This document shows, piece by piece, positions 8,777 to 37,932 of a stretch of DNA of 64,000 bases. Below the pieces are notes generated by a model. That model did no database searches. It was not told where the DNA came from and worked only from the letters and a program-made list of their open reading frames with translations. Numbering within the stretch: position 1 is the stretch's first letter; each line of letters opens with the position of its first letter. Source of the stretch: Candidatus Pelagisphaera phototrophica (GTDB lineage: Bacteria > Verrucomicrobiota > Verrucomicrobiia > Opitutales > Opitutaceae); contig NZ_CP076039.1 of NCBI RefSeq assembly GCF_014529625.1, positions 806,001 to 870,000 on the forward strand, written 5' to 3'. The position numbers were made by a program, and so were the translations under genes.

Positions 8777-8808
8777 AGGATCAGTGGAGTTGAAAATTCC
8801 TGGCTATC

Positions 8809-8829
8809 GGCTCGCCGGGCGATCGAGCC
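8809..8829. terminator. Hairpin between convergent genes
   Basis: GGCTCG (8809-8814) and CGAGCC (8824-8829) form a perfect six-pair stem around a nine-base loop. It sits exactly between the DUF885 stop and the stop codon of the convergent sulfatase. A bidirectional terminator is plausible by position, but neither side has a clear T run. Confidence 0.35.
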
Positions 8830-18588: not shown

Positions 18589-19335
18589 ATGGCCCTGATA
18601 CGCATACTAATTTTAGTTTCGCTACTTTTGCTGGAATTCAATGCCGCAGGTTCGGTAGAAGAGCTTGAACAATTAATTTCCACCAAAGGACAAATTGTGT
18701 TTGAGGACGATTTTGAGCGATCCGAGAGGGACGAATCAAAGGAGCAACTGGATTGTGGTTGGGTAACGAATAGCAAGAAGCGAGCCGCCGGAATCAAGCA
18801 AGCAGATTTACAGGATGGCTATTTGAGAGTCACCATGGCTCCTCATGCGAATCATGGGGTCTCGGTCGGGCATGACGCTCCGTTTGATGACGGTGTGGGT
18901 CAAGTAAAATTTCGGATACACGATAGCAAAGTTATCGAATTCAATTTTAATGACCCCAATTGAAAAGTATCCCATTCGGGCCACATTTGTCACGTAGGTG
19001 TGAAACCCAAGCAAGTGGATTTGCGGGATGGGAAGACGGGAATATTCGACTTGAAGATTCGGGAGAAAAGACTGGCGGGAGCATCTAAGGAAGAGATCAA
19101 CGCTCTAATGAGGGACAAATTTGCCTACCACGATGTCGATTTAGAGCTAGGCCGATGGTACGAATTGAAAATCTTGATACGAGGTGATGTTATGTCAGCG
19201 TGGATAGTTGGCGCTTCCGTGGGAAGTCTGAAATCTTACGGAATCGATCACGCTGTAAAGCAAAACATGGCATTCGCTGTTAGCGGAACCGCGGATATTG
19301 ACGGTCTGCGGATTTGGTCCTTGAGAACAGACTAG
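18589..19335 (+). pseudogene. Secreted concanavalin-like protein gene interrupted by one in-frame TGA
   Basis: An ATG at 18589, preceded by a purine-rich AGGGGTAAGG, opens a frame with a signal peptide (M-A-L-I-R-I-L-I-L-V-S-L-L-L-L). It then has V-F-E-D-D-F-E-R-S-E, a typical opening of PVC beta-sandwich proteins. At codon 125 (18961-18963) a TGA appears. The same frame stays open on the far side, through S-G-H-I-C-H-V-G-V-K-P, V-D-L-R-D-G-K-T-G, L-E-L-G-R-W-Y-E-L and G-L-R-I-W-S, to TAG at 19333-19335. Without the TGA it would be a coherent protein of about 248 residues. A recent nonsense mutation is most likely; sequencing error or recoding are alternatives. It overlaps the convergent DUF1552 stop by four bases. 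Confidence 0.75.
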
Positions 19336-20681
19336 GATTGCAGCTGGGAAAGAATCCCTGAACTGTCGGCGAAACGGTCCATATCGAGCCCCATCGCTCG
19401 AGCCTGGGTAAGCCAAAGGTTGGCAAGGGGTGTGGCTTCTGGACTATGGTAGTGCTGACCTGTTCTCAGGGTCCCTCTACCGGAACCAGCGACCACAATG
19501 GGCAGGTCGTGGTACTGGTGGGTCGACCCGTCACCGAGGCCGGAGCCATAGGTGAAGATAGTGTTGTCGAGAAGTGTCGATCCATCGGATTCGACTATGC
19601 CATCCATTTTTTGGACCAAATAGAGATACTGCTCCATATGGAATCGATCCAGCCGCTCTAGATCCTCTACGTGCTCAGTCTGGTTGTGAGACATGTAGTG
19701 ATGGCTCATGGGCTTGTCGAACAGACTATCGTAAGTGAAAGGCGTGTTCCAACGCTCGGGTCCCACCATGAAAGTGGCTACTCGAGTCAATCCGGTTTGC
19801 AAGGCGATCACCATGAGATCTCCCATGAGCCGAATGTATTCGCCTCTTGGGAGATAGGCTCCGGTTGGCTCGGGCATGGGCGTCTTGTCGAGCTCGCCTT
19901 TCATGCGGTCGAGCTTGTCAATCCTCTCTTCGATCGTTCGAATGGAATGAAAATACTCGGCGAACTTCTGCTGATCTGTGTATCCAAGATTACGATTTAA
20001 TGTTCGAGCGTCTTCAAGAACTAAGTCCGTGATGTTGCGGAAATTCTGGATTTCCTGATCACGGAAAAGCCGGTTGTACATCTTGCGGGGATCGCGGATT
20101 GACGGAGCTAGGTGGCCAGTGCCGTACCAAGACATGTTGTCAAAATACATCGACTCCTTATTGTCGCGATGGCTGTTGCAACTGAATTCCAAAGATCGGA
20201 AAGGCGTTTCGCGGGCGACGTTGTCTGCAATGATATGGTCAAGTGTGCGATCGAGAGGATAGGCGGAGGTTTCCACCGAATAAGGCGTTGCGCTGCTCAA
20301 AAAGCAAGAAGCGCATTGGGCGTGAACATCAGTGCCGTGCTGAAACTGCCTATCGAGTCCTGTGATTAAGGTAATTTTGTCCTTAACCGGGGCCAATGGC
20401 TGTAGTGTGGGTGTAAGACCCAGGTTGTGGAGGCCTGGCTTTATTTCCGGAAGGAATAGGGAGGCCATATTGCTGCTCTGATTCCCTTCGGGAACCTCCG
20501 CTTCCGCTTCTCCAGGAAAAAACGATCGTCTAACTACGCCGATGGGTACGTAGAAATAGGCCAAGCGTGTTTTAGGCAACTTCCTTGGAGCAAGCTTAGC
20601 TAGGCTCTCGAACCAAGGCAACGAAAGAGCTGCCCCGCCGGCGCCTTTTATGAAATCGCGTCTGTTGATTAGAGGATTCAT
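19332..20681 (-). CDS. DUF1552 domain protein, Tat-type signal
   Basis: This 449-residue protein begins I-N-R-R-D-F-I-K-G-A-G-G-A-A-L-S-L-P-W-F, a twin-arginine export signal. The body matches DUF1552: L-A-Y-F-Y-V-P-I-G-V, then I-T-G-L-D-R-Q near 107, D-V-H-A-Q-C-A-S near 118, T-L-D-H-I-I-A near 145, S-M-Y-F-D-N-M-S-W near 176, F-M-V-G-P-E-R-W near 305, and the ending block with G-S-G-L-G-D-G-S-T-H-Q-Y-H. DUF1552 proteins usually accompany DUF1592-type cytochromes, but here the neighbour is an RND efflux operon ending 90 bases upstream. Its partner may be elsewhere. The molecular function of the family is not known. Confidence 0.87.
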   Translation of the reverse strand: MNPLINRRDFIKGAGGAALSLPWFESLAKLAPRKLPKTRLAYFYVPIGVVRRSFFPGEAEAEVPEGNQSSNMASLFLPEIKPGLHNLGLTPTLQPLAPVKDKITLITGLDRQFQHGTDVHAQCASCFLSSATPYSVETSAYPLDRTLDHIIADNVARETPFRSLEFSCNSHRDNKESMYFDNMSWYGTGHLAPSIRDPRKMYNRLFRDQEIQNFRNITDLVLEDARTLNRNLGYTDQQKFAEYFHSIRTIEERIDKLDRMKGELDKTPMPEPTGAYLPRGEYIRLMGDLMVIALQTGLTRVATFMVGPERWNTPFTYDSLFDKPMSHHYMSHNQTEHVEDLERLDRFHMEQYLYLVQKMDGIVESDGSTLLDNTIFTYGSGLGDGSTHQYHDLPIVVAGSGRGTLRTGQHYHSPEATPLANLWLTQARAMGLDMDRFADSSGILSQLQS

Positions 20682-20771
20682 TGAAAAGCAATCGAAACTA
20701 TGTTAGCGTCGAAAATGTGCTTTAGGCAATCAGTTTTTTGAAACCGGTAATTCGGGAGAATCGCGGAAAAA

Positions 20772-23700
20772 TTAAGCATTACCTTCCAGACTTTCCTCTG
20801 ACTTGAAGGGCTTCCAATACCATTGCTTCGCTGTGGACAACATTGTCCCAAGGTCTTGGGCAACCAGAAGAGTGCAAGGTATGAGGAACAAGGTGATAAC
20901 AGTGGCGAATACGACGCCGAATCCCAGAGATACGGCCATGGGTATGAGGAACTGGGCTTGCAGGGAGGATTCCATCATAAGCGGAAGCAAACCAACGAAT
21001 GTTGTTAGGGAGGTAAGAATGATGGGGCGAAATCGTTTACCTCCGGCCTCAAAGGCAGCATCGCGGAGACTCATACCAGCTGCCTTTCTTTGGTTTACGA
21101 AATCGACCAAGACCAAAGAGTCGTTCACCACGACTCCAGCCAACGCTAGCATTCCGAAGATTGATAGGTAAGAGGGCGTTAGGCCCATGACCATGTGCCC
21201 AAGCAAGGCCCCGACGATGCCAAATGGAAGGGCGATCAAGACGAAGAAGGGCTGTGTCATGGATTTGAATGGGATCGCAAGAAGGGCGTAGAGGATGAAT
21301 AGCAGGGCTAAAGAGCCGATGATGGTGCGACGTCTCGATTCTTCGGCTTCGGCCACATATCCCATCCATTGGAACGACAAGCCTTCCACCTCGTTGCACA
21401 GCTCTTGAATTCGAGGCTCGATTTCTTTCGAGATTCCAACGATGTCTACGGTTTCGTCGATCGGCTGGGCCCCGATGCGAATGACTTCAGCTCGGTCGTT
21501 TCGCTCTATGTGGGTTGGAGCTTGCGTGAAGGTGACATCTGCTACGGTCGTCAGAGGTACGTCAGCTCCCCGAGGAGTGCGGATTTTGATACGCTCAAAA
21601 GTATACAAGGATTCGCGTTCATCTTCGGGCAATCGCACCATGACGCGAACGTCGTCGACGCCCTGCAGTATCCGTTGAGCCTGCTCCCCGTAAAATGCTT
21701 GGCGGATTTGACGCGCCAGAAGCTGTTGCGTTAGGCCCAGCTCAGCGGCTCTGGGCTTAAGGGTTACCTCCAGTTCATCTGCCCGAAAGTTAACATTGGC
21801 CCAGGCGTTATTGATACCCTCGTACCCCGATAGCATCGTCCGGATCTCGTCAGCGACTATCGCTTTTTCCTCTGAGCTCGGACCGCGCAGTTCAAGATTC
21901 AAATTATCCTCGTTATACTCGCCCCCTTGTTGGAGCGTGGACTCGGAATACACTCGAAACGTTCTGGCTTCGGGGATAGGCCCAATGATTTCAGCCCACC
22001 GATTGGCGATCACGCTATTGCGCGGTCCCGGCTCGCTTCTACCCTCCGGGGGAACGACTTCCACTTGGACGAATCCCTGAGACTGACTGTATCCTTTACC
22101 TGGATACTTAGCTCCAGATACGATAGAAACATTCCGCACCAGCGGTTCGTCCGTTTCCGGATCGACGAACTCGGTTTTAAGCTGATCAACCGCATCGACG
22201 ATTCTTCTAATGTAGCGGTCTGTGGTTTCCAAGCGGACATCGCCCGGAAGTGCCAGGATGGCTGTGAGGCGAGTGGTATCAACGCTTGGGAAGGACTGAA
22301 AACCGAGCCGCCCGCCCATGCAGTAACCGCCCATGAGCAATCCCATGGTTGCGAAAAGGCACAATACCGACCATCGATTGGCTACAGCGAATTTCAGTGC
22401 CGGTTGATAGACGCTCTCCGCAAATTGCTCCATGCTATTGGCGACCCGCGTCTGAAAGCGTCCGAACGCATTTTTAGTCGGCTTGATGCGCACGTTTTTA
22501 AGGTGCGCTGGCAAAATAAACTTGGATTCGATTAGCGAGAATAGCAGTACCGGGGCAACGATAGGAGGAATTTGCTTTGCGAAATCTCCCCAGACGCCTT
22601 CGAAATAGAGCAGGGGTAAAAAGGCGACTGCGGTTGTTATGACACCGAAGGTAACAGGCACGGCCACCTGTTTCGTCCCCAGTATGCTGGCCTCAGTCGG
22701 GTCCATGCCGGTCTTGAGTTGGGAATAGACATTTTCGCCTGTAATAATGGCATCATCGACAACGACCCCCAGTACCAGAATATAGCCGAAAAGGCTCATG
22801 ATGTTTGCCGTCACCCCAAAGAAGGGCATGAGCAAGACGCCGCCGGCAAAGGAAATCGGGATACCCAACACGACCCAGAAAGCAACCTGCGGACGCAGAA
22901 AAATGCCCAGTATGATCATGACGAGGATACTTCCCTGAAAGAGGGAAGTAACGAGCGTATCCAAGCGGCCGCGTATGCTTTGGGACTCGTCTTTCCAAAT
23001 GTGCAGTTCGACGCCATTCGGAAATCGATTGTGGGCGGTGTCTACGTATTTCCGCACCTTGTCAGAGATGCCGATGGCACTCTCTTGTCCAATCCGCATG
23101 ACTTCTACATAGAGAGCCGGCTTTTCGTTGAATTCGACGTATTTGGTGCCGCCTTCGAAACCATCGATGATCGTGGCTACCTCTCCTACGAGGACATCAG
23201 CCCCGTCTTTCGAGCGGATGGGAATTTTGGAAAAATCCTCTTCGGTGTATGCTTGGCCCCGGGTCCTGACCGTTAAGCGCCCGCTTCGGCTTTGAATAGT
23301 GCCGGCGGGCATATCGATAGAATTCCGGCGAATGGCGTCGGCTATCTGCTGGAAGGTCAGTCCATAGGATCGGAGTTTCCGCTCATCCGCTTCGATCGAA
23401 ATCTCACGAGCACGGTCTCCTTGAATGTTGATTCTGCTGATGCCCGGCATCTCCAGAAGATCATCTTGAACTTGGCGAGCGGCTTTGAGGAGGTCGTGGT
23501 CGCTCAAATGCCCCGAAACCGCGATCGTGAGTACCTCTCGCGAGTTTGCCGATTCCGGTATGAAAATGCGGGGCGGTTCGGTTTCAGCAGGAAATGTGTT
23601 GATGGTATCAACTGCGGCTTTGACGTCGTCCATCAAGCTGCGCAAATCTACACCGTCTTTGGCTCGCAGGTAAAAGCGGGCTCGCCCGTTGCCGCCGTCG

Positions 23701-23942
23701 GCGTTGAGTTGCTCAATTCCTTGGACTCTTTCCAAGGCGGTTTCAACCGGGATCAAGATGGCTTTTTCGATATCCTTGGGAGTCGCTCCTCGATATCTCA
23801 TATCCATCATGACAAGGTCCCAGCTCAGAGCGGGAGTCACTTCCAGCGGGATTTTGAAGAAGGCGGTGTACAAGCCGGCAAGGAAAATGCCAACCATGAG
23901 AAAGTTGGCGGCGATTCCATTTTTCGTGAACCAGCTTATCAT
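20772..23942 (-). CDS. RND efflux transporter permease (AcrB/MMPL-like)
   Basis: This is an inner-membrane proton-driven pump of 1056 residues from ATG 23942. The frame extends to 23999, but the later start M-I-S-W-F-T-K-N-G-I-A-A-N-F leaves a 5-base gap to the upstream gene and matches the family N-terminus. The protein shows the two-fold RND layout: TM1, a large periplasmic loop, a TM2-6 block with V-V-V-D-D-A-I-I-T-G-E-N-V-Y carrying the proton-relay Asp pair, TM7, a second loop, and TM8-12 with G-V-V-V-N-D-S-L-V-L. It forms an operon with the membrane-fusion protein just upstream. No outer-membrane TolC-type gene is present. The substrate is unknown. Confidence 0.92.
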   Translation of the reverse strand: MISWFTKNGIAANFLMVGIFLAGLYTAFFKIPLEVTPALSWDLVMMDMRYRGATPKDIEKAILIPVETALERVQGIEQLNADGGNGRARFYLRAKDGVDLRSLMDDVKAAVDTINTFPAETEPPRIFIPESANSREVLTIAVSGHLSDHDLLKAARQVQDDLLEMPGISRINIQGDRAREISIEADERKLRSYGLTFQQIADAIRRNSIDMPAGTIQSRSGRLTVRTRGQAYTEEDFSKIPIRSKDGADVLVGEVATIIDGFEGGTKYVEFNEKPALYVEVMRIGQESAIGISDKVRKYVDTAHNRFPNGVELHIWKDESQSIRGRLDTLVTSLFQGSILVMIILGIFLRPQVAFWVVLGIPISFAGGVLLMPFFGVTANIMSLFGYILVLGVVVDDAIITGENVYSQLKTGMDPTEASILGTKQVAVPVTFGVITTAVAFLPLLYFEGVWGDFAKQIPPIVAPVLLFSLIESKFILPAHLKNVRIKPTKNAFGRFQTRVANSMEQFAESVYQPALKFAVANRWSVLCLFATMGLLMGGYCMGGRLGFQSFPSVDTTRLTAILALPGDVRLETTDRYIRRIVDAVDQLKTEFVDPETDEPLVRNVSIVSGAKYPGKGYSQSQGFVQVEVVPPEGRSEPGPRNSVIANRWAEIIGPIPEARTFRVYSESTLQQGGEYNEDNLNLELRGPSSEEKAIVADEIRTMLSGYEGINNAWANVNFRADELEVTLKPRAAELGLTQQLLARQIRQAFYGEQAQRILQGVDDVRVMVRLPEDERESLYTFERIKIRTPRGADVPLTTVADVTFTQAPTHIERNDRAEVIRIGAQPIDETVDIVGISKEIEPRIQELCNEVEGLSFQWMGYVAEAEESRRRTIIGSLALLFILYALLAIPFKSMTQPFFVLIALPFGIVGALLGHMVMGLTPSYLSIFGMLALAGVVVNDSLVLVDFVNQRKAAGMSLRDAAFEAGGKRFRPIILTSLTTFVGLLPLMMESSLQAQFLIPMAVSLGFGVVFATVITLFLIPCTLLVAQDLGTMLSTAKQWYWKPFKSEESLEGNA

Positions 23943-23947
23943 ACCGA

Positions 23948-25282
23948 CTAATTCTGTTTTTCTTTTGGTTTGCTTGAAACGCCCAACGCTTCGAGCCATG
24001 CTGATTTCGTTAGGGCGTCGGGATTGATGTCTGGAAGAATTTCTACCTGGCCTCCCTCTGGGGCATAGCTCAGCTTTGTAGTGGCCATTAGCATACCATC
24101 TGGAATATCTGGATCGCGAATGATAACATGGTCTTCGTCTGCCCAGATTGCCACTATGGTACGATTATGCAGGGTCATTTTATCGGGATCCACTAAGTAA
24201 ACTTGATCCAGGCGCTTCACGCCTAGTCTGGGGAGAGGCATCACGTTTTCCAGAATTTTTCCGGAGATGGAAGCGGTAACCGGTTGCCCAATACGCAAGG
24301 GTGGCTTGCCGGAATGCAGTCCGAACGGATCGTCTACCTTGGCGATGGCGAAGAGTTCCAGCGAACTGGCGTCCAAGGCACCCTCGGTGCGGACGATTTC
24401 AGCTTTCCAGAGGGCCCCGTTTCCCGGGTTCAGGCTGTCGCTCAGTTCTACGTCTACAGGCGGGTCGCCTAGGTTTTCGGGTAACGCAAGTAGCGGTAGA
24501 TCCTCTGTAGAGATAGGAAGGCGAACTTCGGCATAGTCGGAGGCGAAGATCGTGCCGAGGGTGGAATTAATGCGGATAGCCTGGCCGAGGCCGACAGAGC
24601 GTTGGCGGACGCGGCCATCGAACGGGGCACGTATGCGAGCACGTTCCAAATCGCGTTGGGCCCGATCTAGTTGGGCGTTGGCGGATTTGACGTTGGCTTC
24701 GGCTTGCTTTAGCTGAGGAATACGCAGCACAAGCGGGTCGGGCTGTTCGTCCTCTTTCGAACTCAGGCGTTGCCAGTTTTGGCGGGCTTGGTCGGACTGG
24801 GCTTTTTCCAAGGCGTAGGAAGAAGTGGTCCGGGCTACTTGCGCTTCGGCATTGGCCAGGGTTGCTTCGAAGTCGGCGGTGTCCAACTCCACGAGGACGT
24901 CTCCTTCGCTGAAAAAGGCTCCGTCTTCGAAGTTGGGGCTGATGCGAACGATGCGTCCAGCCACTTCAGAATTGAGCGTGATCTGATCGTGGGGGCGGAC
25001 GTTGCCTTGACTTGTTATGCGGGTAGGGTATCTTTGGGAGGCCAGCTTGACCACTTGGGTTTTAATGGGTCGCGGCTCGGCTTTTCCTTTTTTGGTTTCC
25101 TCGGGTTCGACGGACAGAGTGAGATAGCCGAAAACGCCAATCGCCAGGATCAGAATGGGCGGAAGGAGGCGTACGAGAACAGAGAAAAGGTTTTTTGGGT
25201 TCGAAGGGTCGGATGCGCGGTAACCTTGCTCGCTTTGTGACGAGGTATCTTTCGGTTGAGAGCTGCTTTCTGGCGAGGGCAT
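23948..25282 (-). CDS. RND efflux periplasmic adaptor (membrane-fusion protein)
   Basis: This 444-residue protein has a charged, Ser/Gln-rich N-terminal tail of about 38 residues and one membrane anchor (L-L-P-P-I-L-I-L-A-I-G-V-F-G-Y-L). The order is then typical of adaptors: the first lipoyl half (I-T-S-Q-G-N-V-R-P and L-N-S-E-V-A-G-R-I-V-R-I), a helical coiled-coil hairpin of Ala/Glu/Gln-rich sequence (about residues 150-235), the second lipoyl half (R-I-R-A-P-F-D-G-R-V near 240), and beta-barrel and membrane-proximal domains. It would bridge the permease at 20772-23942 to an outer-membrane channel. It is first in the operon, with the permease 5 bases downstream. Confidence 0.92.
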   Translation of the reverse strand: MPSPESSSQPKDTSSQSEQGYRASDPSNPKNLFSVLVRLLPPILILAIGVFGYLTLSVEPEETKKGKAEPRPIKTQVVKLASQRYPTRITSQGNVRPHDQITLNSEVAGRIVRISPNFEDGAFFSEGDVLVELDTADFEATLANAEAQVARTTSSYALEKAQSDQARQNWQRLSSKEDEQPDPLVLRIPQLKQAEANVKSANAQLDRAQRDLERARIRAPFDGRVRQRSVGLGQAIRINSTLGTIFASDYAEVRLPISTEDLPLLALPENLGDPPVDVELSDSLNPGNGALWKAEIVRTEGALDASSLELFAIAKVDDPFGLHSGKPPLRIGQPVTASISGKILENVMPLPRLGVKRLDQVYLVDPDKMTLHNRTIVAIWADEDHVIIRDPDIPDGMLMATTKLSYAPEGGQVEILPDINPDALTKSAWLEALGVSSKPKEKQN

Positions 25283-25442
25283 GTGCAGGGTGATCTAAAA
25301 GAGAAGTGCGTAAGCTAGGGGTGACTCCGGGACTCGAATTCTGGTTGAGATAATTACGATAGAATACTGTTTTTAGGACACATCGAAAACGCTCGAATCT
25401 TCTTTCAGTCGATATGTCGGTTTTTATTAGTAAGAGCTGACC

Positions 25443-27014
25443 CTACGGCTTTGCCATTGCTTCGGCTTCTTTACGGGTTATGATGCCATTTCCGTTGCGA
25501 TCGAGGGTGTCGAAGTATTGCCCTTTGTATTCTTTGCGCGTGAGGCGGCCGTCTCTGTTCTGGTCTGCACGGAAAAGGCGGGCAAAGCGTTCAGTGGGCG
25601 TGAGATTGGCTCCGCTGCGAGTTTGAGGCTTAGCGGCGGTTTTGAGTTTACCGCCAATTTCGGCGTTGGTCCGGTCCTGGCGAATCCAGCGAGGCGTCTC
25701 CATCTGTTCGCTCCAGGCGGTATAGATGGTTCGCGTTTCCTTTAGCTTTTCTGGGTTGCGTTTGGAAAGGTCTCTTTTCTCCCCAATGTCATTGGCGAGA
25801 TTGAAAAGCATTTCAGGCTGACCACGCATTTTTACGAGTTTCCAATCTCCCACTCGAGCGGCGTGTTGGGTTCCTGCTCGCCAGAAAAGGTTCTGATGGG
25901 GCCTCCCTGTTTGATGTCCGTTCAAAAATGGGATAAGGTCTTTGCCATCGAGGGGGTTTTTAGTTGGCAATTGAGCACCGGCGGCGACAAGAGAAGTTAC
26001 GTGTACGTCGAATCCCATGACGGGTTTTCGGTAGGTTTCGCCAGCTGGAATTTTTCCAAGCCACTGCATGGCGAAAGGAACTCGGATGCCTCCTTCGAGC
26101 ATTTGCCCTTTGTACCCACTTAGTGGATCGTTTCTCGAAGTCGTTTGAGTCGTGGGTCCACCGTTGTCGCTGTAAAAGAAAACGAGCGAACTCCCTTCTT
26201 GGCCGAGATCGCGCACTTTGGTCATTACACGTCCAATCGCGTCGTCTAGGGCGGATAGCATTCCAGCGTAGGTCTTGCGTTTCTTGTCTTTGATGTCTGG
26301 AAAACGGCTCTCGTAACGCTGGGTTGCTTCGAGAGGCAAGTGGACCGCATTGAATGAAAAGAAAAGGAAGAATGGTTTTTCGCTTTTCCGGTTTTGTTCA
26401 ATAAACTCGACGGACTCCCGAGCGAAAGCGTCTGTGAGGTACTCCGATTCGTCATTGTATGGCAGGCCGTGGCGAAACATTTGATGATTCTGGCGAGGGC
26501 CATTCGGATAGAATGTTCGGGCGCCGCTGTGGAAGCCATAGGTGTACTCGAATCCACGTTCATGTGGACGGAGGCCTTCCTTAAAACCAACATGCCATTT
26601 CCCAACCCAGCAGGTGGCATAACCGACTTCCTTCAGTCTTTCCGCCAGTGTGGGAACTTCGCGTGGTATGCCGAAATTGGGAGCGGAATACTCTTCGGGG
26701 CCAGAATTGTTCTCAAACCCGAATCGGTGTTGGTACATTCCAGTAAGCAATCCCGCTCGGGAAGGAGAGCATATGGGATGATTCGCATAACCGTCCGTAA
26801 ACTTGACTCCTCGTGCAGCGATGGAATCGATATGCGGTGTGGGAATGTCATCACAACCGTTGAATCCAATATCATTATAGCCGAGGTCGTCGGCTAGAAA
26901 TATGATGATATTTGGCTTCTTGGCAAATACGCTGAGACAAGTAATCGCCGTCAAAAAAACAATGCCTTTGAAAAACCAAAGACATCCCAGCGATTTTTGG
27001 ATCTGCTGTTTCAT
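25443..27014 (-). CDS. Secreted sulfatase with C-terminal EF-hand pair (C-S-P-S-R)
   Basis: This 523-residue protein has a signal peptide (hydrophobic core at residues 13-30). A standard sulfatase domain follows: F-L-A-D-D-L-G-Y-N-D-I-G, FGly site P-I-C82-S-P-S-R-A-G-L-L-T-G, G-K-W-H-V-G-F, F-N-A-V-H-L-P and Y-S-D-N-G-G-P. After W-S-E-Q-M-E-T-P-R-W the usual enzyme ends, but here about 60 residues are added. They carry two EF-hand loops, D-Q-N-R-D-G-R-L-T-R-K-E (484-495) and D-R-N-G-N-G-I-I-T-R-K-E (505-516). EF-hand tails are frequent on PVC extracellular proteins and may bind calcium for stability or attachment. Its ATGA start overlaps the stop of the upstream cytochrome gene, so the two are translationally coupled. 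Confidence 0.92.
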   Translation of the reverse strand: MKQQIQKSLGCLWFFKGIVFLTAITCLSVFAKKPNIIIFLADDLGYNDIGFNGCDDIPTPHIDSIAARGVKFTDGYANHPICSPSRAGLLTGMYQHRFGFENNSGPEEYSAPNFGIPREVPTLAERLKEVGYATCWVGKWHVGFKEGLRPHERGFEYTYGFHSGARTFYPNGPRQNHQMFRHGLPYNDESEYLTDAFARESVEFIEQNRKSEKPFFLFFSFNAVHLPLEATQRYESRFPDIKDKKRKTYAGMLSALDDAIGRVMTKVRDLGQEGSSLVFFYSDNGGPTTQTTSRNDPLSGYKGQMLEGGIRVPFAMQWLGKIPAGETYRKPVMGFDVHVTSLVAAGAQLPTKNPLDGKDLIPFLNGHQTGRPHQNLFWRAGTQHAARVGDWKLVKMRGQPEMLFNLANDIGEKRDLSKRNPEKLKETRTIYTAWSEQMETPRWIRQDRTNAEIGGKLKTAAKPQTRSGANLTPTERFARLFRADQNRDGRLTRKEYKGQYFDTLDRNGNGIITRKEAEAMAKP

Positions 27015-29122
27015 CGGCTTTGTTGGGCTACCTGTGGCTCCGATGCCTGTGCTGGTTGCAGAAAGGATTCGCTGAGGACGATTTCCTTGATTAAAGTATG
27101 AAACTGGAATTCGTCGTCGATGGTTGCTTGGGCGATTTGGTCGAGTGAGGGAGAATCGGCGATATCGAGCTCGCGACCGAGTGCAAAGGAAAGCACGTGG
27201 GCTGCGAAAGCTCGGGTGAAGCGCTCTTTCTCAGCAAGGATAGCGTCTTTGAATTCAACGATATTGTGGAATGCGTGCTTCCGGAAAAGCTTTCCGGAGG
27301 TATTAACGATGCGACCGTTCTCGTATTTTTCACGCCAAAGTCCTGCTGGGCCGTAATTCTCTAAAGCGAATCCTAGGGGATCGATTCGATTGTGGCAGCC
27401 GGCGCAATCCAGGTTTTCCCTATGAACATCCAACCGTTCGCGCAGAGTGAGCGATTCGATGTCTACTTCATCACTCTTCTCCGGCAGTGGGGGGACGTCC
27501 GCAGGGGGCGGTTCTGGCGGGTTGTTGAAGATGACGGATGCGATCCAGGCCCCTCGAGTGATCGGTTTGGTTCGGCTGGCGCTGGAGGTCATTGTCATAA
27601 CCGCAGCGTTTGTAATGACGCCACCTTGACGCCGGTCTTCAAGTAGCACCCGTTCAAAGGGAACCTGCACGACTGGCGCTGACATTCCACTGGATCTGCC
27701 CCCTTCCTGGTACCAGGTTTCAAGAAATTTACTCTGATAACTGTAGGTGGGGTCAATGAGCTCCAAGATGGATCGATTCTCAATTAGAATGGTCTCGAAA
27801 AGAAGGAGCGGCTCGAGCATCATATGCATGCTTCCCCGGTACTTAAAATGATAGAACCCCGGCCAGGTATCTCGATCGGGGGTGGATGTGATGATCCGAT
27901 CGAGCTGCAACCACTGTCCGGGAAAACTGTCGCAAAACCGTTTCAATCGTTCGTCCCGAAGCATTCGCTCGACTTCGGTGACCAGCGTTTTGGGGTTACT
28001 CAATTCTCCATTGACCGCTTTTTCTAAAAGAATGGGGTCGGGTATGCTACCCCAAAGAAAGTAGGAAAGCCGCGATGCGAGGGCGGTATCCATGGCTGCG
28101 TTCATTTTGCCCTCAGTGACCGGTTGATCCCGCAAGTAGAGAAACCGTGGCGAGGCCAAAGCGGCTGAAGCCATCATTTTCATTGCATCCGTGTAGGTCT
28201 CACCTGATTGGATACGTTGTAAGGTGCTTTCAGCGTAGCGATTCAAGGTAGATTCATCTACCGGCTCACGAAACGCCCGAGTAAGAAACGAACGTAGTCG
28301 ATTACTGATAACGATTGAGAGATTCTCACTAGCGGCGGGAGGAGTGAAAAATGAATGCCACACCCCGCAAGTATCTTCGTTGAAGTCGTCGCTTTCGACA
28401 ATCGAGCGGCTGAGCTTCAAGAATGATTCCATGAGCAGCGGTGAAATAGATAAGTGGTCGGCTTGGTTGTCGTAGCCATGTTCTGCTCGGAGGTCTTGAG
28501 GGAAAGGGCCGACCCCGGCTAGTCTCGGTTCGATCATCTGGGACTTCCCCAGTGGTCGGCTACCTGCCTTTAGGGACGATGGCATGATCCCTGTCTGTGG
28601 TTTAAAGTAGTTGCCGTACTCCCGCAACATACGTTCCGGAAGCGTAAAGACTTCCACGTTGAGCTCGAACAAGTCCTGGACCGCGTTATTGTATTGAAAG
28701 CGGTTCATGCGCCGAATCGGGGTTTTAGGAAATGAGGTGCGAGCGGCAATCGCCTCTTTCATCAGTGCTTGCAGCTCAGCGATTATCTCCTGTCTCGACT
28801 CCGCTGAAAGAGGAGGTTCTTCCTCTGGCGGCATTTCTTCGAATTCGAGGACGTCGATGAGATCCTGAATGCGGTGGGGGGTTCTCAGTAAATCGTCTGA
28901 ATTCGAAATCTCCAATAAGTTTAGATCCCCTTTTATTTTGTCATCTTTGCCGTGGCATTTGATGCAATTTTCTGCGAGGGCTGGAAGGAGCGTTTCGTTG
29001 AAGCCTTCTGCGGCATTAACAAAGGGAGTCATCTTTGCTCCGATTACGAAGAATACGAGTAATCTAGGGACGTCACATATGATGCCTGCAGGGGTTGCTA
29101 TTTGTTTGATTGGAATTAGCAT
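27011..29122 (-). CDS. DUF1587/DUF1592/DUF1588/DUF1585 cytochrome c-like protein
   Basis: Read from ATG 29122 the protein has about 703 residues; the frame extends to 29266 without family similarity. It carries an export signal and then a heme c motif in N-C-I-K-C-H-G (PSCyt1-type domain) with E-F-E-E-M-P-P-E-E-E-P-P. The DUF1587 segment R-M-N-R-F-Q-Y-N-N-A-V, a DUF1595 segment, DUF1592 (S-R-L-S-Y-F-L-W-G-S and F-P-G-Q-W-L-Q-L), DUF1588 (G-G-V-I-T-N-A-A-V and C-A-G-C-H-N-R-I-D-P-L-G-F-A-L-E) and DUF1585 follow in order. These PVC proteins are assumed to be periplasmic electron-transfer or oxidative proteins. No function is proven. It overlaps the downstream EF-hand sulfatase by 4 bases. Confidence 0.9.
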   Translation of the reverse strand: MLIPIKQIATPAGIICDVPRLLVFFVIGAKMTPFVNAAEGFNETLLPALAENCIKCHGKDDKIKGDLNLLEISNSDDLLRTPHRIQDLIDVLEFEEMPPEEEPPLSAESRQEIIAELQALMKEAIAARTSFPKTPIRRMNRFQYNNAVQDLFELNVEVFTLPERMLREYGNYFKPQTGIMPSSLKAGSRPLGKSQMIEPRLAGVGPFPQDLRAEHGYDNQADHLSISPLLMESFLKLSRSIVESDDFNEDTCGVWHSFFTPPAASENLSIVISNRLRSFLTRAFREPVDESTLNRYAESTLQRIQSGETYTDAMKMMASAALASPRFLYLRDQPVTEGKMNAAMDTALASRLSYFLWGSIPDPILLEKAVNGELSNPKTLVTEVERMLRDERLKRFCDSFPGQWLQLDRIITSTPDRDTWPGFYHFKYRGSMHMMLEPLLLFETILIENRSILELIDPTYSYQSKFLETWYQEGGRSSGMSAPVVQVPFERVLLEDRRQGGVITNAAVMTMTSSASRTKPITRGAWIASVIFNNPPEPPPADVPPLPEKSDEVDIESLTLRERLDVHRENLDCAGCHNRIDPLGFALENYGPAGLWREKYENGRIVNTSGKLFRKHAFHNIVEFKDAILAEKERFTRAFAAHVLSFALGRELDIADSPSLDQIAQATIDDEFQFHTLIKEIVLSESFLQPAQASEPQVAQQSR

Positions 29123-29415
29123 GCGATTCAAAGTACGAGTAACGAAGTGCCCGATCTGCCTTGGCTTGATTCTGGGGTAGGTGGGGCTAAAGTGACCCTC
29201 ACACAAAAGGGCTGTATTGGATGCTTTCAAATCAAAAATGTGGATGGTCTGGAGTCGCATCATCACCTCAGTTCCTAATGGGGCTAAACTTTGGATAAGC
29301 CGCGATCACTATTGCTTGCTCTTGAGTGAGAAATTCGTAGTTAAAATAAAGACTTAACCCCTTATGGCTACCCTCTTAATCTATGCAATCCCATCCTTTA
29401 TTCTTATCCCGTGCC

Positions 29416-32688: not shown

Positions 32689-33891
32689 TTATTCGTCGGG
32701 TGCGGTATAGTGGCGGGTCAGCGTATCAAGAATTTCACTGCGAACGACTTCGGGGTCGATTTTGCCGAGTTTACGATAGAGAACGTGACCTTCCTGATCA
32801 ATGAGGATGGAATAGGGAACCGGTCCAGGCCATTCGGGATCGAGGGCGTCCGCCAGCTCGTCCATATTCGTGCCGGTGTAGAGGTAGTTGTTGGTCGAGC
32901 GACCTTCGGCCTCGACTGACTTGCGAAGCTTGTCACTCATGATGGCGCGATGCTTGCCCAAAAAGGCCTTGGCTTTTCCCATTTGGCTAAGCTGATCCAG
33001 GCTGATGGTAATGAGTTCGAATTCGCGTCGGCTGAATTTCCGAGCAATAGCGGTTAAGTCGGGAAACTCCTCTACACAAGGAACGCACCAAGTCGCCCAG
33101 ATATTGACCAGGCGTACTTTCTCGGTACCGTTTTTACGCAATGCGTCAATGCCTGCGGCGTCGATTTTCTCTATGGTTGCTTCAATTGACTGCCATTTCT
33201 GCTCCTCTTCCACTACATGCTGGTTGCGCTCTTTCCATTTGGTAGAGCAACCATGGGGGCGGGTCGTTTCAACGTGTACGGGATTTCCCGCAAGCAGCGC
33301 TTCGACTGCGTTGCGAGCATCGGGGTGCTTCACGGTTGTGGGATCGGGAAAGCGGGAATCGTCGAAGCGTCCATTGTAGCGTAATTTTCGTTCCTTGTCG
33401 AAAATAAGAACATGTGGAGTGGCGAGACAACCATAGGCCCGGGCGGTGACTTGTGCGTCACCGTCGAAGAGGAAAGGGAACGTCCATCCGTAATCCTCAG
33501 CGTATCTTTTGGAGTCTGCGAAGGTCTCATCGTAGTCCGTGTGACCAAACTCATCGGGCCGCAATCCGGAGGAGTGGTTAGGGTTGATGGCGACGAAGGC
33601 GAAACTCTCGTCCTGAAAGTCTTCAACGAATTCCAGTACTCTCCCCATGGCTCCGTGCGAGGTCGGGCAGTGGGTCCCCGTGAAGTAGACCACAAGAATG
33701 TCCGGTCCGGCAAAGTCGGAAAGCGAGTATTGTTTCCCGTCAATTCCAGGCAGATTGAAGTTAGGGGCGGAATCTCCAATGTGTAGCGTCGTGAACCCGT
33801 CGGGTAGACCTTTGGCATCCACAGCGAAGGCGCTTGTGCTAGCGATCGAAATGAGGAGTAAAGTAGGGGCGAGGATTTTGATGAGTCTCAT
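32689..33891 (-). CDS. Secreted fusion of an AhpC/TSA redoxin and a thioredoxin-like domain
   Basis: This 400-residue protein has a signal peptide (about 1-23) and two redox domains. The first (about 37-200) is redoxin-like: I-G-D-S-A-P-N-F-N-L-P-G-I-D-G, then Y-F-T-G-T-H-C-P-T-S-H-G with a single active-site Cys, and A-T-P-H-V-L-I-F-D. The second (about 255-390) is TlpA/ResA-like: L-V-N-I-W-A-T-W-C-V-P-C-V-E-E-F-P with the C-x-x-C pair, and V-P-Y-S-I-L-I-D. Such fusions occur in PVC genomes beside cytochrome-like genes. Here it follows the DUF1552 gene by 81 bases on the same strand, suggesting one operon. A role in thiol or heme redox chemistry outside the cytoplasm is likely. Confidence 0.88.
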   Translation of the reverse strand: MRLIKILAPTLLLISIASTSAFAVDAKGLPDGFTTLHIGDSAPNFNLPGIDGKQYSLSDFAGPDILVVYFTGTHCPTSHGAMGRVLEFVEDFQDESFAFVAINPNHSSGLRPDEFGHTDYDETFADSKRYAEDYGWTFPFLFDGDAQVTARAYGCLATPHVLIFDKERKLRYNGRFDDSRFPDPTTVKHPDARNAVEALLAGNPVHVETTRPHGCSTKWKERNQHVVEEEQKWQSIEATIEKIDAAGIDALRKNGTEKVRLVNIWATWCVPCVEEFPDLTAIARKFSRREFELITISLDQLSQMGKAKAFLGKHRAIMSDKLRKSVEAEGRSTNNYLYTGTNMDELADALDPEWPGPVPYSILIDQEGHVLYRKLGKIDPEVVRSEILDTLTRHYTAPDE

Positions 33892-33972
33892 TGGGATGGA
33901 TTGGGAAGGTTCATCGAGTTGGTGGGCGGACCAAGATTTTTTAGCGCTGAGAAGTAAATCGGGGCTCTACCT

Positions 33973-35277
33973 TCACATCCATAACTCTTCGATGACGCCT
34001 GTGCTGTCGCCATGGGACTCTGCCCCGATGCCAGTGCCTTTAAGGAGGCTTAGCCATAGATTACACAGGGGCGTTTTTGCATTTTCCATTACCAGGTGGC
34101 GACCATGTTTTACACCTGCAGCGCCACCGGTAATTATTGTGGGGCAATTTTTCAGGTAGTGGATGGATTCAATGTTGCTTCCGTAGCTGAGTGATATGTT
34201 GTCAAACAAGCTGCTTCCATCGGCTTCCTTAGTCCCCTTCAACTTGTCTATCAGATATGCGAGGAGCTGGGTCTGTTTTTCATCCCGCATCTCGGAAACG
34301 CTTAGCCTCGAGCCGTTCGTATAGTGGCTCATATTGTGCCCGGTGATGGTTGCTCCGAGGCTTCGAATGAAGGTATCCACAGGTTGGCGATAAGTCATGA
34401 CGCGGGTCGCGTCGACTTGCATTGCGGCCACCATGATATCGTACATCAATTTAACTTCTTCATAGCCCTCAATCTCTCCCTGCGGCTCATTGATTGGGTC
34501 AGCAGGACGGATTTTAGGAACATCAAGCCACTGCTCTTCCTTCGCCAGTCGCGTCTCGATTTCACGAATCGACTGGAAATACTCATCGAGTTTATCTGTG
34601 TCGTTCTTGCTCAGGTTTCCATTCATGCTTCGGGCGTTGTCCAGAACAGTGTCGAGCACACTGCGTTTCTGCTTCAGCATGGTTTGCCTTTCTTCTAGAG
34701 GTGTGTTGTCATCGGAGAACAGTTTGTGGTAGGCGGCGACGGGCGTGTTTAATCCGGCGATAGGTTTGCCTTGCCGGTTCCATGACATGGATAATCCGGG
34801 ACCGTGGCCAGAGTCCTCCGCCCGATCGCAACCCAGCTGAATAGAAGTGAAGCGGGTTTCTTTTCCGAGTGTTTCTGCAGCTACTTGGTCAACGGATACG
34901 CTGTTGTAGAAGCTCTGTCCGGGCTCCGCATAACGATTAGCGCCAGTCAGATAGAAAGTGCTGCCCCAGTGGGCTTCGCTCGAAAACTGATTGGTCAGAT
35001 TCTGAATAATGGTGAGGTCCTTTTTGTGCCGCTCTAGCGCTTTTAGGCCTTTCGGAAGATTGTAGTTTGAACCAATTGTATTTAAATCTGGATACCAAGA
35101 CTCTTTTGTGACTCCCCAGCCGAAGCCGAGAAACATCATTCGTTTAGGAGGAGCGGCCACTTTCGCTGCAGCAGCAAACGCCGAGCTACCCAGTGATTCG
35201 AGGAATGGTAAAGCGATTAATGCGGAGCTGCTGCGAAGAAATGTTCGTCGTGTTTGGGTCAGTTTAGAGTAGTTCAT
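33973..35277 (-). CDS. DUF1552 domain protein, Tat-type signal
   Basis: This 434-residue protein starts with T-Q-T-R-R-T-F-L-R-S-S-S-A-L-I-A-L-P-F-L-E-S-L-G, a twin-arginine signal. DUF1552 landmarks include M-M-F-L-G-F-G-W-G-V, T-I-I-Q-N-L-T-N-Q near 98, H-W-G-S-T-F-Y-L near 112, S-I-Q-L-G-C-D near 152, G-L-S-M-S-W-N-R near 168, D-T-F-I-R-S-L-G near 312 and S-L-S-Y-G-S-N near 379. It lies 117 bases after the DUF1592-type gene and 81 before the redoxin-thioredoxin gene. The DUF1592 plus DUF1552 pairing is standard in PVC bacteria, so the two products are expected to act together in the periplasm. The function is unknown. Confidence 0.88.
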   Translation of the reverse strand: MNYSKLTQTRRTFLRSSSALIALPFLESLGSSAFAAAAKVAAPPKRMMFLGFGWGVTKESWYPDLNTIGSNYNLPKGLKALERHKKDLTIIQNLTNQFSSEAHWGSTFYLTGANRYAEPGQSFYNSVSVDQVAAETLGKETRFTSIQLGCDRAEDSGHGPGLSMSWNRQGKPIAGLNTPVAAYHKLFSDDNTPLEERQTMLKQKRSVLDTVLDNARSMNGNLSKNDTDKLDEYFQSIREIETRLAKEEQWLDVPKIRPADPINEPQGEIEGYEEVKLMYDIMVAAMQVDATRVMTYRQPVDTFIRSLGATITGHNMSHYTNGSRLSVSEMRDEKQTQLLAYLIDKLKGTKEADGSSLFDNISLSYGSNIESIHYLKNCPTIITGGAAGVKHGRHLVMENAKTPLCNLWLSLLKGTGIGAESHGDSTGVIEELWM

Positions 35278-35394
35278 TGACTGAAAGAATTAATTAATGA
35301 TGGTTTGCGAATCATGAGAATGGATACGGATAAAAAGTTTTTACAGGTCTTTCTCGTTTCATGAAACGGGTGTGATTTGTTGGAAAAATATTTC

Positions 35395-37932
35395 TCACTT
35401 TTGTTGAAATTGTTCGGATTGAACGAGAGCATGGATGAACGTCCGAGACTGGTATTCACTGGATTTAGCCTCCGATAGGATCTCTTGGGCCAAATCATAG
35501 TCGGTAAATCCATACGGTCGACCGAGACCATATTCAATGAGGGATTCGGTGAGCCCAAGAGCAAACGAGTCACCCTTCTCTGCGATCCGGTCCCTTAGCT
35601 CGAAGAAGTCGTTGAAAGGAGTTTTGTCAGGGAGAGTGCCACTGGGGTCGATGGGGGCCCAGGAATCCTCCTCATTCTTCTTCGTCGCGATGATTCTCTC
35701 CATTGACCGCCACTTGCCGGCAGCATCAAAATTTTCTAAACCGTATCCAATTGGGTCAATTTTTTGGTGACACTGGGCGCATTGGGGCTCTTCCATATGA
35801 ACAATTTGCAGTTCGCGGGCGGAGAGTCGCTTTTCTGACAGTCGACTGAGTTGCGGTACATTGGCCGGTGCCGGGGGAGGTGGATCATTGAGTAGTTTTC
35901 GCATGACCCAAGCACCGCGTTCTACGGGTGATGAGCGCTCGCCATCAGAACCCATAGCAAGTACTGCAGCGGTACCAAGCAGTCCACCTCTGGGTGAACT
36001 ATCTGGCAAAGAAACTTTTCTGAAATGGCGCCCCTTTACACCCTGTATATCGTAGTATTCAGCCAAAAGGTCGTTAATCACAACGAAGTCGGACTTGAGT
36101 AAATGCTTTATGCTCAGGTTCTCATCGAAGAGTGTCTGGATTGTGTGGTAGATCTCGTTTCGAGCTGCGTCTTTGGCACTGTCATCAAATTCAGGATATA
36201 ATTCGTAGTTGAATTGGAAGAAATTGAGTCGATCCATATGGAGCCATTGGCTCGTGAACCCGCTGACGAAGTGCCAGGCTTTAGAATCCGAAAGCATTCG
36301 GTTGGTTTGGTGCTCCAACGCCATTGAATTCTTGAGCTTTCCCGCTTTGGCGACTTGGTATAGCTCGTCGTCAGGCGGGGCGCTCCAGAGGAAATAGGAG
36401 AGCCGGACTGCGAGTTCGAGATCGTTGAGTTCACGCTTTTCCTCACCCGGTTTCGGCTCGTTCAAATAGAGAAAAGCCGGCGAAGCGAGTATGACTGCTA
36501 GGGGGTCCACGAGAGCCGTTTTGAAATTGGCTCCAGCTTGGCGCTTATCCCGATAAAGGCTCATCAACTTATCCAGGAAGCTGTCGGTGGGCTCTTGGGT
36601 TCTAAACGCTTTTTCGGAGAATCTTCGCAGTATATCCTTGGCGTCTTCATCATTCTCGATTGCGGAAGGTCCTCGATCGAATACGAGCGTTTGAAATTGG
36701 GTCAACTTCTCGTTTTGAATTGGTCCTTCCCATTCGAGCCAGTCGATCCAAAGTGCGGGCGGCTCTAGGGGCTCGTCCCGCTGACGAGCATTCCGGAAAA
36801 CGAAGCGCGCCGCGTCGCGATTGTTGTGCTGCCGCTCTCGAACTCCAATTTTTCGGCTGGACGAGGGCGTAATGGTAATCGGAAACTCGACAATTTGAGG
36901 TTCTTCGTATGTGCCGGTTACTTTTCGGTAGTCGAGGATAGCCAATTCTCCGGACCGAGCGCCACTTTCTACCGTTCCAATTTCAAGGAAGCGTCTCCGC
37001 ATCGGGGCTTCCTCAAACCCGCCTACGCGAGCTCGTATGATATATTTCCCCGGGGGAGCTTCTTTGGGAAGGGTTATGGTATCGGTTATGGCCCCATTCC
37101 AGGTCACATAAAACACTGTGCCTGTTTTGGTCTGAGGGAGGGAAAGATAATGGGAGTAGCCGATGCCGTCCCTATTGTAGAGACCCGTTTCGAACTTGAC
37201 GCGGGCGGCATCGATAAAGCCGAATTCAGACGGTGATTTGCCGGACTCTTTCCACTGCTCCCCTCGTATCTTGGCATCCAGCAGCTTGTTGTATCTATTT
37301 TGGATCGTTTTGTTAGTCGCGATCTCGGATTCCTTGAGCACACGGGTTGGTTTAAGGCGCGAGGGCGTTGTCAGCGCGGCGTTTAATGCACGTTTGGCAA
37401 TGTTTAGGTACTGCTCAAATTGGTCGCTGGAAAAAAAGAGAGCGGAACCCACCGTGTCGAATGAGCCTGTACTCGCGTCCTTGGGAAGCTCTTCCGCTTC
37501 GATCGACACGCCAAGCAATTCCCAGATGGTATTCTCGTACTCGCGCCGGTTGAGGCGGCGCATCGTGATAACACCACCGCTGTCGTTGAGGATGTTTCGA
37601 GCGGTGACCATTTGATGTGACAGGTCGTCCAAAAAATCGGTCTTCGATTGGGCTTCGGGTTGCGTCTCGTCTTCTGGGGGCATTTCGCCAGAGTTGAGTA
37701 CGTTGAGAACTTTTTGCCAGAGTTCTGCCGTTGCGAGCGTACTCAAATTGAAGGACAAGTCCTCTAAGTTGACATTGCCTTCCTCGGTAATCGCATCGTG
37801 GCAGTCCAGACAGTATTCGTTTAAAAAATCAAAGTGATTCTCAGGCATCACCGCAGTTGGCCCTTCCGACGCGAAGGCGCTGAATCCTAAGCAGAAAGAG
37901 GCTAAAATTGCGATTTGCTGGGACAGTATCAT
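35395..37932 (-). CDS. Large DUF1587/DUF1592/DUF1588/DUF1585 cytochrome c-like protein
   Basis: This 845-residue protein has a signal peptide (A-I-L-A-S-F-C-L-G-F-S-A-F-A). An N-terminal heme site, Y-C-L-D-C-H-D near 41, sits in a PSCyt1-like domain with L-N-S-G-E-M-P-P-E-D-E. DUF1587 (R-R-L-N-R-R-E-Y-E-N-T-I-W-E-L-L) is followed by a long insert (about 220-420) that looks like a carbohydrate-binding beta domain. DUF1595, DUF1592 (R-L-S-Y-F-L-W-S-A-P-P-D-D-E-L), DUF1588 (R-G-G-L-L-G-T-A-A-V and C-A-Q-C-H-Q-K-I-D-P-I-G-Y-G-L-E-N-F-D) and DUF1585 follow. It is first in the operon with DUF1552 and the redoxin-thioredoxin fusion. Two C-x-x-C-H sites imply covalent heme; the reaction is unknown. 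Confidence 0.91.
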   Translation of the reverse strand: MILSQQIAILASFCLGFSAFASEGPTAVMPENHFDFLNEYCLDCHDAITEEGNVNLEDLSFNLSTLATAELWQKVLNVLNSGEMPPEDETQPEAQSKTDFLDDLSHQMVTARNILNDSGGVITMRRLNRREYENTIWELLGVSIEAEELPKDASTGSFDTVGSALFFSSDQFEQYLNIAKRALNAALTTPSRLKPTRVLKESEIATNKTIQNRYNKLLDAKIRGEQWKESGKSPSEFGFIDAARVKFETGLYNRDGIGYSHYLSLPQTKTGTVFYVTWNGAITDTITLPKEAPPGKYIIRARVGGFEEAPMRRRFLEIGTVESGARSGELAILDYRKVTGTYEEPQIVEFPITITPSSSRKIGVRERQHNNRDAARFVFRNARQRDEPLEPPALWIDWLEWEGPIQNEKLTQFQTLVFDRGPSAIENDEDAKDILRRFSEKAFRTQEPTDSFLDKLMSLYRDKRQAGANFKTALVDPLAVILASPAFLYLNEPKPGEEKRELNDLELAVRLSYFLWSAPPDDELYQVAKAGKLKNSMALEHQTNRMLSDSKAWHFVSGFTSQWLHMDRLNFFQFNYELYPEFDDSAKDAARNEIYHTIQTLFDENLSIKHLLKSDFVVINDLLAEYYDIQGVKGRHFRKVSLPDSSPRGGLLGTAAVLAMGSDGERSSPVERGAWVMRKLLNDPPPPAPANVPQLSRLSEKRLSARELQIVHMEEPQCAQCHQKIDPIGYGLENFDAAGKWRSMERIIATKKNEEDSWAPIDPSGTLPDKTPFNDFFELRDRIAEKGDSFALGLTESLIEYGLGRPYGFTDYDLAQEILSEAKSSEYQSRTFIHALVQSEQFQQK

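Follow-up and report, generated by a model that had tools for sequence, protein, structure and literature searches.

Do three neighbouring genes of Candidatus Pelagisphaera phototrophica form one dedicated redox system of the periplasm, or has a widespread two-gene unit gained a neighbour with a task of its own? The question arises in the window, a stretch of 64,000 nucleotides (bases 806001-870000) of the single-contig 4.09-Mb genome, which is 97.87% complete. The three genes encode a DUF1592-type protein with two predicted heme sites, a DUF1552 protein and an exported fusion of a peroxiredoxin-like (PRX-like) and a TlpA-like domain; they lie on the minus strand with gaps of 117 bp (genes 1 and 2) and 81 bp (genes 2 and 3), as an initial annotation had described (Table 1). 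DUF1592/DUF1552 pairs exist in many copies in genomes of the Planctomycetes-Verrucomicrobia-Chlamydiae (PVC) group and have no assigned function. Loci are cited below by L-numbers and genomes by G-numbers, the window's genome heading the list of its genus as G000.

The reading that we consider probable is that of a heme electron-transfer pair and an independent thiol-redox fusion, brought together in part of one genus. The locus is one of 16 copies of a two-gene unit that encodes the DUF1592-type diheme protein and the DUF1552 protein. In part of the genus, a widespread thiol-redox fusion of the envelope, which elsewhere is apart from the pair, would have been attached to it. The diheme protein would carry electrons through its PSCyt1 and PSCyt3 hemes, the DUF1552 protein, exported by twin-arginine translocation (Tat), would bind or act on a substrate, and the two would act jointly in the envelope with other partners that differ by host. 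In the fusion, C75 and C215 of the N-domain would react with peroxide or disulfide and be re-reduced by the WCxPC site of the C-domain (C269, C272), itself fed by an inner-membrane thiol donor.

Separation of the fusion and the pair across the class

The class sample of 236 genomes yielded 46 full-length fusions (E <= 6.2e-71) in 45 genomes; among the weaker hits listed, coverage hardly extends past the N-domain. We read 59 fusion loci, namely the window, 13 loci from named genomes and 45 from the class, which amount to 58 distinct loci since L069 and L147 lie on the same contig. At least 5 kb was available on both sides of the fusion in 48 of the 59, and less than 5 kb on one side in the other 11, where neighbours may be missed. 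DUF1552 is present within the stretch read at a single one of these 59 loci, the window, and DUF1592 occurs near the fusion at two, the window and, 7.6 kb away, Chthoniobacter flavus. No neighbour family other than the fusion and a set of overlapping frames seen at 11 loci recurs in more than five fusion loci, a count that is rough since greedy gene calling missed the fusion itself in 13 of the 59.

The same picture emerges from the side of the pair. Redoxin matches were absent from 13 regions around 14 other pairs of the window's genome and from 28 regions read in other genomes (27 with DUF1552). In the second pair of the window, which is split, the DUF1592 gene ends 3.4 kb away from the fusion, and two plus-strand genes intervene. 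Since DUF1552 accompanies the fusion in the window only and the regions read around pairs elsewhere lack a redoxin, the class offers no support for a dedicated three-gene system; the fusion is apart from DUF1552 in this wider sample, and the linkage supposed by the initial annotation is not conserved outside the genus. Relatives carry the fusion mostly away from DUF1592 and DUF1552 genes, the outcome that the initial annotation had itself named as refuting its view. At eight loci other than the window (L066, L071, L153, L157, L163, L165, L183 and L184), a PSCyt2 or DUF1501 gene is found no more than about 8.3 kb from the fusion, which by a rough estimate is near chance because many of these genomes hold tens of such pairs.

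Linkage inside the genus

Inside the genus the trio is conserved. A separate genus search placed the fusion directly behind DUF1552 in 6 of 11 genomes (G000, G271, G270, G267, G272 and G268), of which G270 has a fusion that runs off the contig end, G272 has the frame split in two between the domains (L358, about 8020-9210), and G267 retains only the end of DUF1592 on the contig, with a gene of the 23S rRNA-intervening-sequence (IVP) type between DUF1592 and DUF1552. The other five genomes differ. In G266 and G269, the fusion and the window-type DUF1552 are on different contigs, and about 8 kb on each side of the fusion is free of both families; G263 lacks a window-type DUF1552 and keeps just a 3' remnant of the fusion at the place of the trio (L359, about 8016-8366); G264 (85% complete) lacks the fusion and carries a DUF1552 that is 68% identical; both are missing from G265.

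In the six genomes, DUF1552 and the fusion are separated by 81, 81, 181, 150, 82 and about 40 bp; of five gaps checked, those of G270, G267 and G268 contain inverted repeats of 7 bp or more. A conserved promoter region upstream of the fusion was considered and rejected: two close relatives gave local alignment scores of 25 and 22, whereas 100 shuffles, which cover the first relative only, averaged 25.7. In the tree of the fusion, both copies that are separated from DUF1552 are nested among the trio copies, the fork concerned having a support of only 80/81. The arrangement may have had one origin with a later break, or a later or repeated origin.

A constant pair with variable neighbours

The DUF1592-DUF1552 pair occurs in one-to-one pairing in the genome, which holds 16 PSD2 genes and 16 DUF1552 genes: 15 of the 16 pairs are adjacent, and the sixteenth, in the window, is split by a sulfatase, an HlyD adaptor and a resistance-nodulation-division (RND) pump. 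Fifteen PSCyt2 genes of the genome exceed the cut-off, and a DUF1501 gene lies at 2.3-3.7 kb from each of them (match start to match start); in addition, one DUF1800 gene adjoins a partial DUF1501 match.

Beyond this genome, a Sphingobium plasmid (L379, 7373-11519) carries a row of DUF1592, DUF1552, cytochrome c', cytochrome b561 and a short-chain dehydrogenase, with a TonB-dependent receptor near; its DUF1592 protein extends from PSD3 to PSD2, without PSCyt1. A second Sphingobium plasmid (L382, 7331-11518) has DUF1592, DUF1552, b561 and a putative oxidoreductase in the same order, again near a TonB-dependent receptor. On a Novosphingobium plasmid, DUF1592 and DUF1552 occur with an ankyrin protein, which likewise stands beside one pair of the window's genome, and homologs of extracytoplasmic function (ECF) sigma factors occur in 8 of the 28 regions around pairs in other genomes (L241, L242, L246, L248, L250, L254, L255 and L257). 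Because of these Sphingobium, Novosphingobium and ECF sigma neighbourhoods, we describe the pair as constant and its neighbours as variable. A function in electron transfer is plausible from the heme motifs and the Sphingobium cytochromes c' and b561, the b561 neighbourhood being the best support for it.

The ankyrin protein was rejected as a usual third gene: outside the two cases named, it appeared in 0 of 28 other-genome regions and 0 of 16 genus or family regions. Separately, a FecR match adjoins the ECF sigma homolog in L242, and one pair of the window's genome (L209, 7349-15010) has as neighbours a TonB-dependent receptor, a FecR protein and an ECF sigma factor. An IVP-type gene sits between DUF1592 and DUF1552 in two genomes of different genera (L352, 104-523; L264, 9499-9912). 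No DUF1592/DUF1552 relatives were found in viral contigs with the patterns used.

The diheme protein

The Pfam order of gene 1 is PSCyt1, PSD3/DUF1587, PSD5/DUF1595, PSD4/DUF1592, PSCyt3/DUF1588 and PSD2/DUF1585, with PSD3, PSD5, PSD4, PSCyt3 and PSD2 in sequence and each over the Pfam cut-off. The two heme sites first noted hold up as predicted sites: both CXXCH motifs (Table 1) and Met84 are invariant among the 16 paralogs, and DUF1592 homologs have two CXXCH motifs in 42 of 44 cases and three in the other two, whereas the motif is absent from 20 of 20 DUF1800 proteins examined. A profile of the PSCyt1 region matched bc1-type cytochrome c subunits in the PDB (best E 1.4e-5) along with other cytochromes c, and no match was named X183.

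The supposed carbohydrate-binding-like insert fared worse. Residues 188-429, between PSD3 and PSD5, match no Pfam family at E <= 1, and none of the 12 Pfam families matched by the 16 paralogs at E <= 0.01 is carbohydrate-binding; the insert is a possible domain overlooked by Pfam.

Outside the cytochrome domain, a search for homology between DUF1592 and DUF1549/1553 or DUF1800 gave short hits only. The top row of DUF1592 against the DUF1549 profile had a probability of 60.5 (E 8e-5) and another setting gave 21.3 on top; PSCyt2 was also matched at 1e-4 by 1 of the 16 DUF1592 paralogs. This homology remains a hint. Giant DUF1592 proteins of 1689 and 1883 aa (L243, 2286-7355; L245, 9720-15371) show four and five stretches that match the DUF1592 profile, and all the additional ones fall in its N-terminal part.

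The DUF1552 protein

Gene 2 belongs to HXXSHH/DUF1552 (PF07586, over the cut-off at E 1.4e-74), and the Tat-type motif read near its start agrees with the export first proposed; RRxF[LI] occurs within 80 residues of the start in 44 of 48 DUF1552 homologs. H103, D130, H314, H318 and H373 are invariant among the 16 paralogs of the genome. We built family profiles and compared 21 pairs of them. DUF1501 and DUF1552 matched with a probability of 98.4 (E 6e-15, 345 columns), DUF1501 and sulfatase with 95.8 (E 6.5e-9), and DUF1552 and sulfatase, weakly and in the same C-terminal region, with 42.8 (E 2.5e-4). Sixteen of the remaining 18 pairs scored 0.1-3.2; DUF1549-DUF1800 reached 19.0 and DUF1549-DUF1592 reached 97.3, the latter because of the shared cytochrome domain.

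The SDNG / GEFGR motif of sulfatases and DUF1501 contains an acidic metal ligand. In the alignment this acidic motif stands opposite YGS in DUF1552, which thus lacks the ligand while its four histidines are still invariant. Because of the profile scores, the YGS alignment and the invariant residues, DUF1552, a relative of DUF1501, is probably also related to the alkaline-phosphatase/sulfatase superfamily and would have an altered metal site. Neither a phosphatase nor a full-length relative came up when DUF1592 and DUF1552 were searched against the PDB as single sequences and as profiles.

In the papers found on DUF1552 and on DUF1592-type families, no functional test of DUF1552 was seen. The initial annotation's description of both families as lacking a known function calls for qualification, since Cbp2D of Cellvibrio japonicus, a DUF1587 protein, has a cellulose-growth phenotype (PMC8981238).

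The redoxin fusion

Gene 3 is the redoxin and TlpA-like fusion that had been proposed, with AhpC-TSA/Redoxin and thioredoxin-like Pfam matches. A PRX-like N-domain (about 36-225), of the PRX_like1 type, precedes a TlpA/ResA-like C-domain (about 241-396). C75 is present in 58 of 59 rows of the fusion alignment (one gap) and C215, C269 and C272 in 59 of 59, two rows coming from one contig. The structure model (predicted local distance difference test score, pLDDT, 87.9; predicted template modelling score 0.82) superimposes its N-domain on 2cvb with Z 24.0 and a root-mean-square deviation of 1.9 over 179 residues. The N-domain matches the 2cvb/3u5r/2ywi group by sequence and structure, and the C-domain matches ResA/TlpA by sequence, below NCBIfam cut-offs. 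The VIA-align rows cover mainly residues 29-204 and barely the C-domain. The nearest named match of the gene is in an Opitutales metagenome-assembled genome (82% identical).

Evidence against a fully independent fusion

Several results weigh against the reading that we favor. First, the fusion and DUF1552 go together by genome. With the window protein as query and E <= 1e-40 as the DUF1552 call, the 236 genomes divide into 37 with both, 8 with the fusion only, 23 with DUF1552 only and 168 with neither (odds ratio 34); that is, DUF1552 is present in 37 of 45 genomes with the fusion and in 23 of 191 without it. The odds ratio is 9.4 among the genomes of at least 4 Mb with a row (n=91). When fusion labels were shuffled within families, a test stratified by family that covers 185 of the 236 genomes, 31.5 joint occurrences were expected and 37 observed, a value reached in 4 of 5000 shuffles. 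In the window's own family, the corresponding numbers are 5, 3, 1 and 15 (both, fusion only, DUF1552 only, neither), and the window-type DUF1552 taken alone has a weak link (4 of 9 genomes, p 0.07). Co-occurrence thus exceeds that expected of unrelated genes and is the main result against a fully independent fusion. Second, in two congeners the fusion stays behind DUF1552 though the downstream flank differs. Third, in G139 (L157) the fusion follows a PSCyt2-DUF1501 pair on the same strand, 578 bp from the open frame. Finally, for the DUF1552 protein itself, a structure prediction from a two-sequence alignment reached a pLDDT of 33.8 and was not used, and the PDB profile search gave no phosphatase, so that its superfamily placement derives from the profiles.

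The co-occurrence may reflect a shared lifestyle or a loose link in trans. The association with DUF1501 is also strong: matches at about E <= 1e-140 occur in 34 of the 45 fusion genomes (odds ratio 17). For the standalone N-domain homolog the odds ratio is 2.0.

Alternative explanations

A first alternative concerns what the pair does: the diheme protein and DUF1552 could be part of oxidative glycan breakdown, as supposed for Cbp2D in Cellvibrio, a role that we hold possible and regard with some doubt. Cbp2D has two c-type heme domains, DUF1587 and a carbohydrate-binding module (CBM), CBM2; when it is knocked out, growth on cellulose is slower, and its X183 domain is able to reduce lytic polysaccharide monooxygenases (LPMOs) (PMC8981238), and PSCyt genes have been found with CBMs and sulfatases (PMC5615132). 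However, neither the window protein nor its 15 paralogs has a carbohydrate-binding Pfam match, the X183 domains of Teredinibacter fed no LPMO under the conditions used (PMC10916295), and the likeness to Cbp2D is drawn from the description of that protein.

The fusion could instead be a helper that serves, in trans and throughout the genome, the many c-type hemes of the PSCyt proteins, reducing apocytochrome thiols as ResA/TlpA/CcmG do or removing peroxide, so that its adjacency to one pair would be incidental and the functional link real. The high odds ratios for DUF1552 and DUF1501, set against that of the standalone N-domain homolog, and the ResA/TlpA-like C-domain speak for such a helper; it is unlikely in view of two further ResA/TlpA-like proteins in the genome (also below NCBIfam cut-offs) that may already fill the job, of the 8 of 45 fusion genomes that have no DUF1552 at the cut-off used, and of an association uncorrected for phylogeny below the family and for habitat. 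A broader version, which we consider quite unlikely, makes the fusion an undescribed thiol-redox partner of PSCyt proteins in trans across PVC bacteria, put behind one pair by this genus, and at the same time makes DUF1592-DUF1552, DUF1549/1553-DUF1501 and DUF1800-DUF1501 three versions of one old pair of a helical and a phosphatase-like protein, two of them with hemes.

Very unlikely is the dedicated three-gene periplasmic system, assembled in the genus and kept by selection, in which the fusion would reduce or protect the diheme protein or DUF1552: the shared strand, the 81 bp gap between genes 2 and 3, in which that strand shows no terminator-like site, the genus linkage and the co-occurrence by genome speak for this part of the initial annotation, and against it stand the 57 of 57 other distinct fusions without DUF1552 in the stretch read (one, L066, from a congener; 10 with less than 5 kb on one side), the variable gap with its inverted repeats, the different contigs in 2 of 8 genus genomes with both genes, and the 14 other pairs of the genome that lack a fusion.

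An electron-transfer pair joined by an independent fusion thus remains the reading that we prefer. With the redoxin link confined to one genus, one lead of limited reach is removed for a pair of families that is abundant in PVC genomes. More general handles are the homology of DUF1552 and DUF1501, the cytochromes c' and b561 beside the pair in Sphingobium, and the way in which the pair's DUF1552 and the fusion occur together by genome.

Features of the window

The coordinates of the trio and of the second pair are collected in Table 1. In the interval 19332-29266, that pair and the sulfatase, HlyD and RND genes that interrupt it are all on the minus strand, and together they are possibly one operon. 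Two partial DUF1501 matches lie side by side at 57460-57839; one of them contains an in-frame stop, and together they look like a decayed copy.

Table 1. Features of the window, in window positions (ORF, open reading frame).
Feature	Position	Strand	Basis
DUF1592-type diheme protein, 845 aa	35395..37932	-	ORF, Pfam
First CXXCH, residues 41-45	37798..37812	-	Invariant in 16/16 paralogs of the genome
Second CXXCH, residues 718-722	35767..35781	-	Invariant in 16/16 paralogs of the genome
DUF1552 (HXXSHH) protein, 434 aa, RRTFLR near start	33973..35277	-	ORF, Pfam
Exported PRX-like and TlpA-like fusion, 400 aa	32689..33891	-	ORF, Pfam, conserved Cys
Second DUF1592-type protein, DUF1552 partner 6.3 kb further on	27011..29266	-	Pfam
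DUF1552 partner of the second pair	19332..20681	-	Pfam

Comparison with known systems

The fusion resembles the PRX-like proteins 2cvb, 2ywi and 3u5r in its N-domain, by sequence and structure, and ResA/TlpA in its C-domain, by sequence. It differs from both in its combination of domains, since no match among the 50 listed spans the two (best query TM-score 0.42), and both the window's fusion and 6 of 13 aligned relatives lack the first Cys of CNHCP.

The pair, too, has counterparts. The PSCyt2/PSD1 (DUF1549/DUF1553)-DUF1501 pairs, 15 of which occur in this genome, are similar in that DUF1501 is related to DUF1552 along most of its length; their heme protein differs, and outside the cytochrome domain what it has in common with DUF1592 is only short and weak. 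In freshwater Verrucomicrobia, PSCyt3-encoding genes usually adjoin a family of unknown genes, and PSCyt genes, some of which bear CBMs, occur with CBMs and sulfatases, for which carbohydrate use was proposed (He et al. 2017, PMC5615132). That arrangement, a PSCyt3/PSD gene beside a second family, matches the pair described here, and the adjoining family would be DUF1552, a term that occurs in the record of the paper and is absent from its main text; the section of the paper that treats it mentions no redoxin fusion, and it includes CBM-bearing members, in contrast to the proteins of this genome.

Among described proteins, Cbp2D and the Teredinibacter turnerae proteins TERTU_2913 and TERTU_3803 (X183 + X132) are secreted, like the diheme protein, and likewise combine at least one c-type heme domain with another CXXCH domain (PMC8981238, PMC10916295). 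They differ in carrying CBMs or X158/X122 domains, whereas the window protein has no CBM match in Pfam. Cbp2D is annotated with DUF1587, and X132 of Teredinibacter is headed by a small Pfam domain printed as DUF1687; judging from the figure legends, and if DUF1687 is a slip for DUF1587, X132 would correspond to the PSD3-PSD2 block. Cbp2D of Cellvibrio japonicus, which combines this layout with a cellulose phenotype, comes closest in organization among the described proteins (PMC8981238, PMC12542752).

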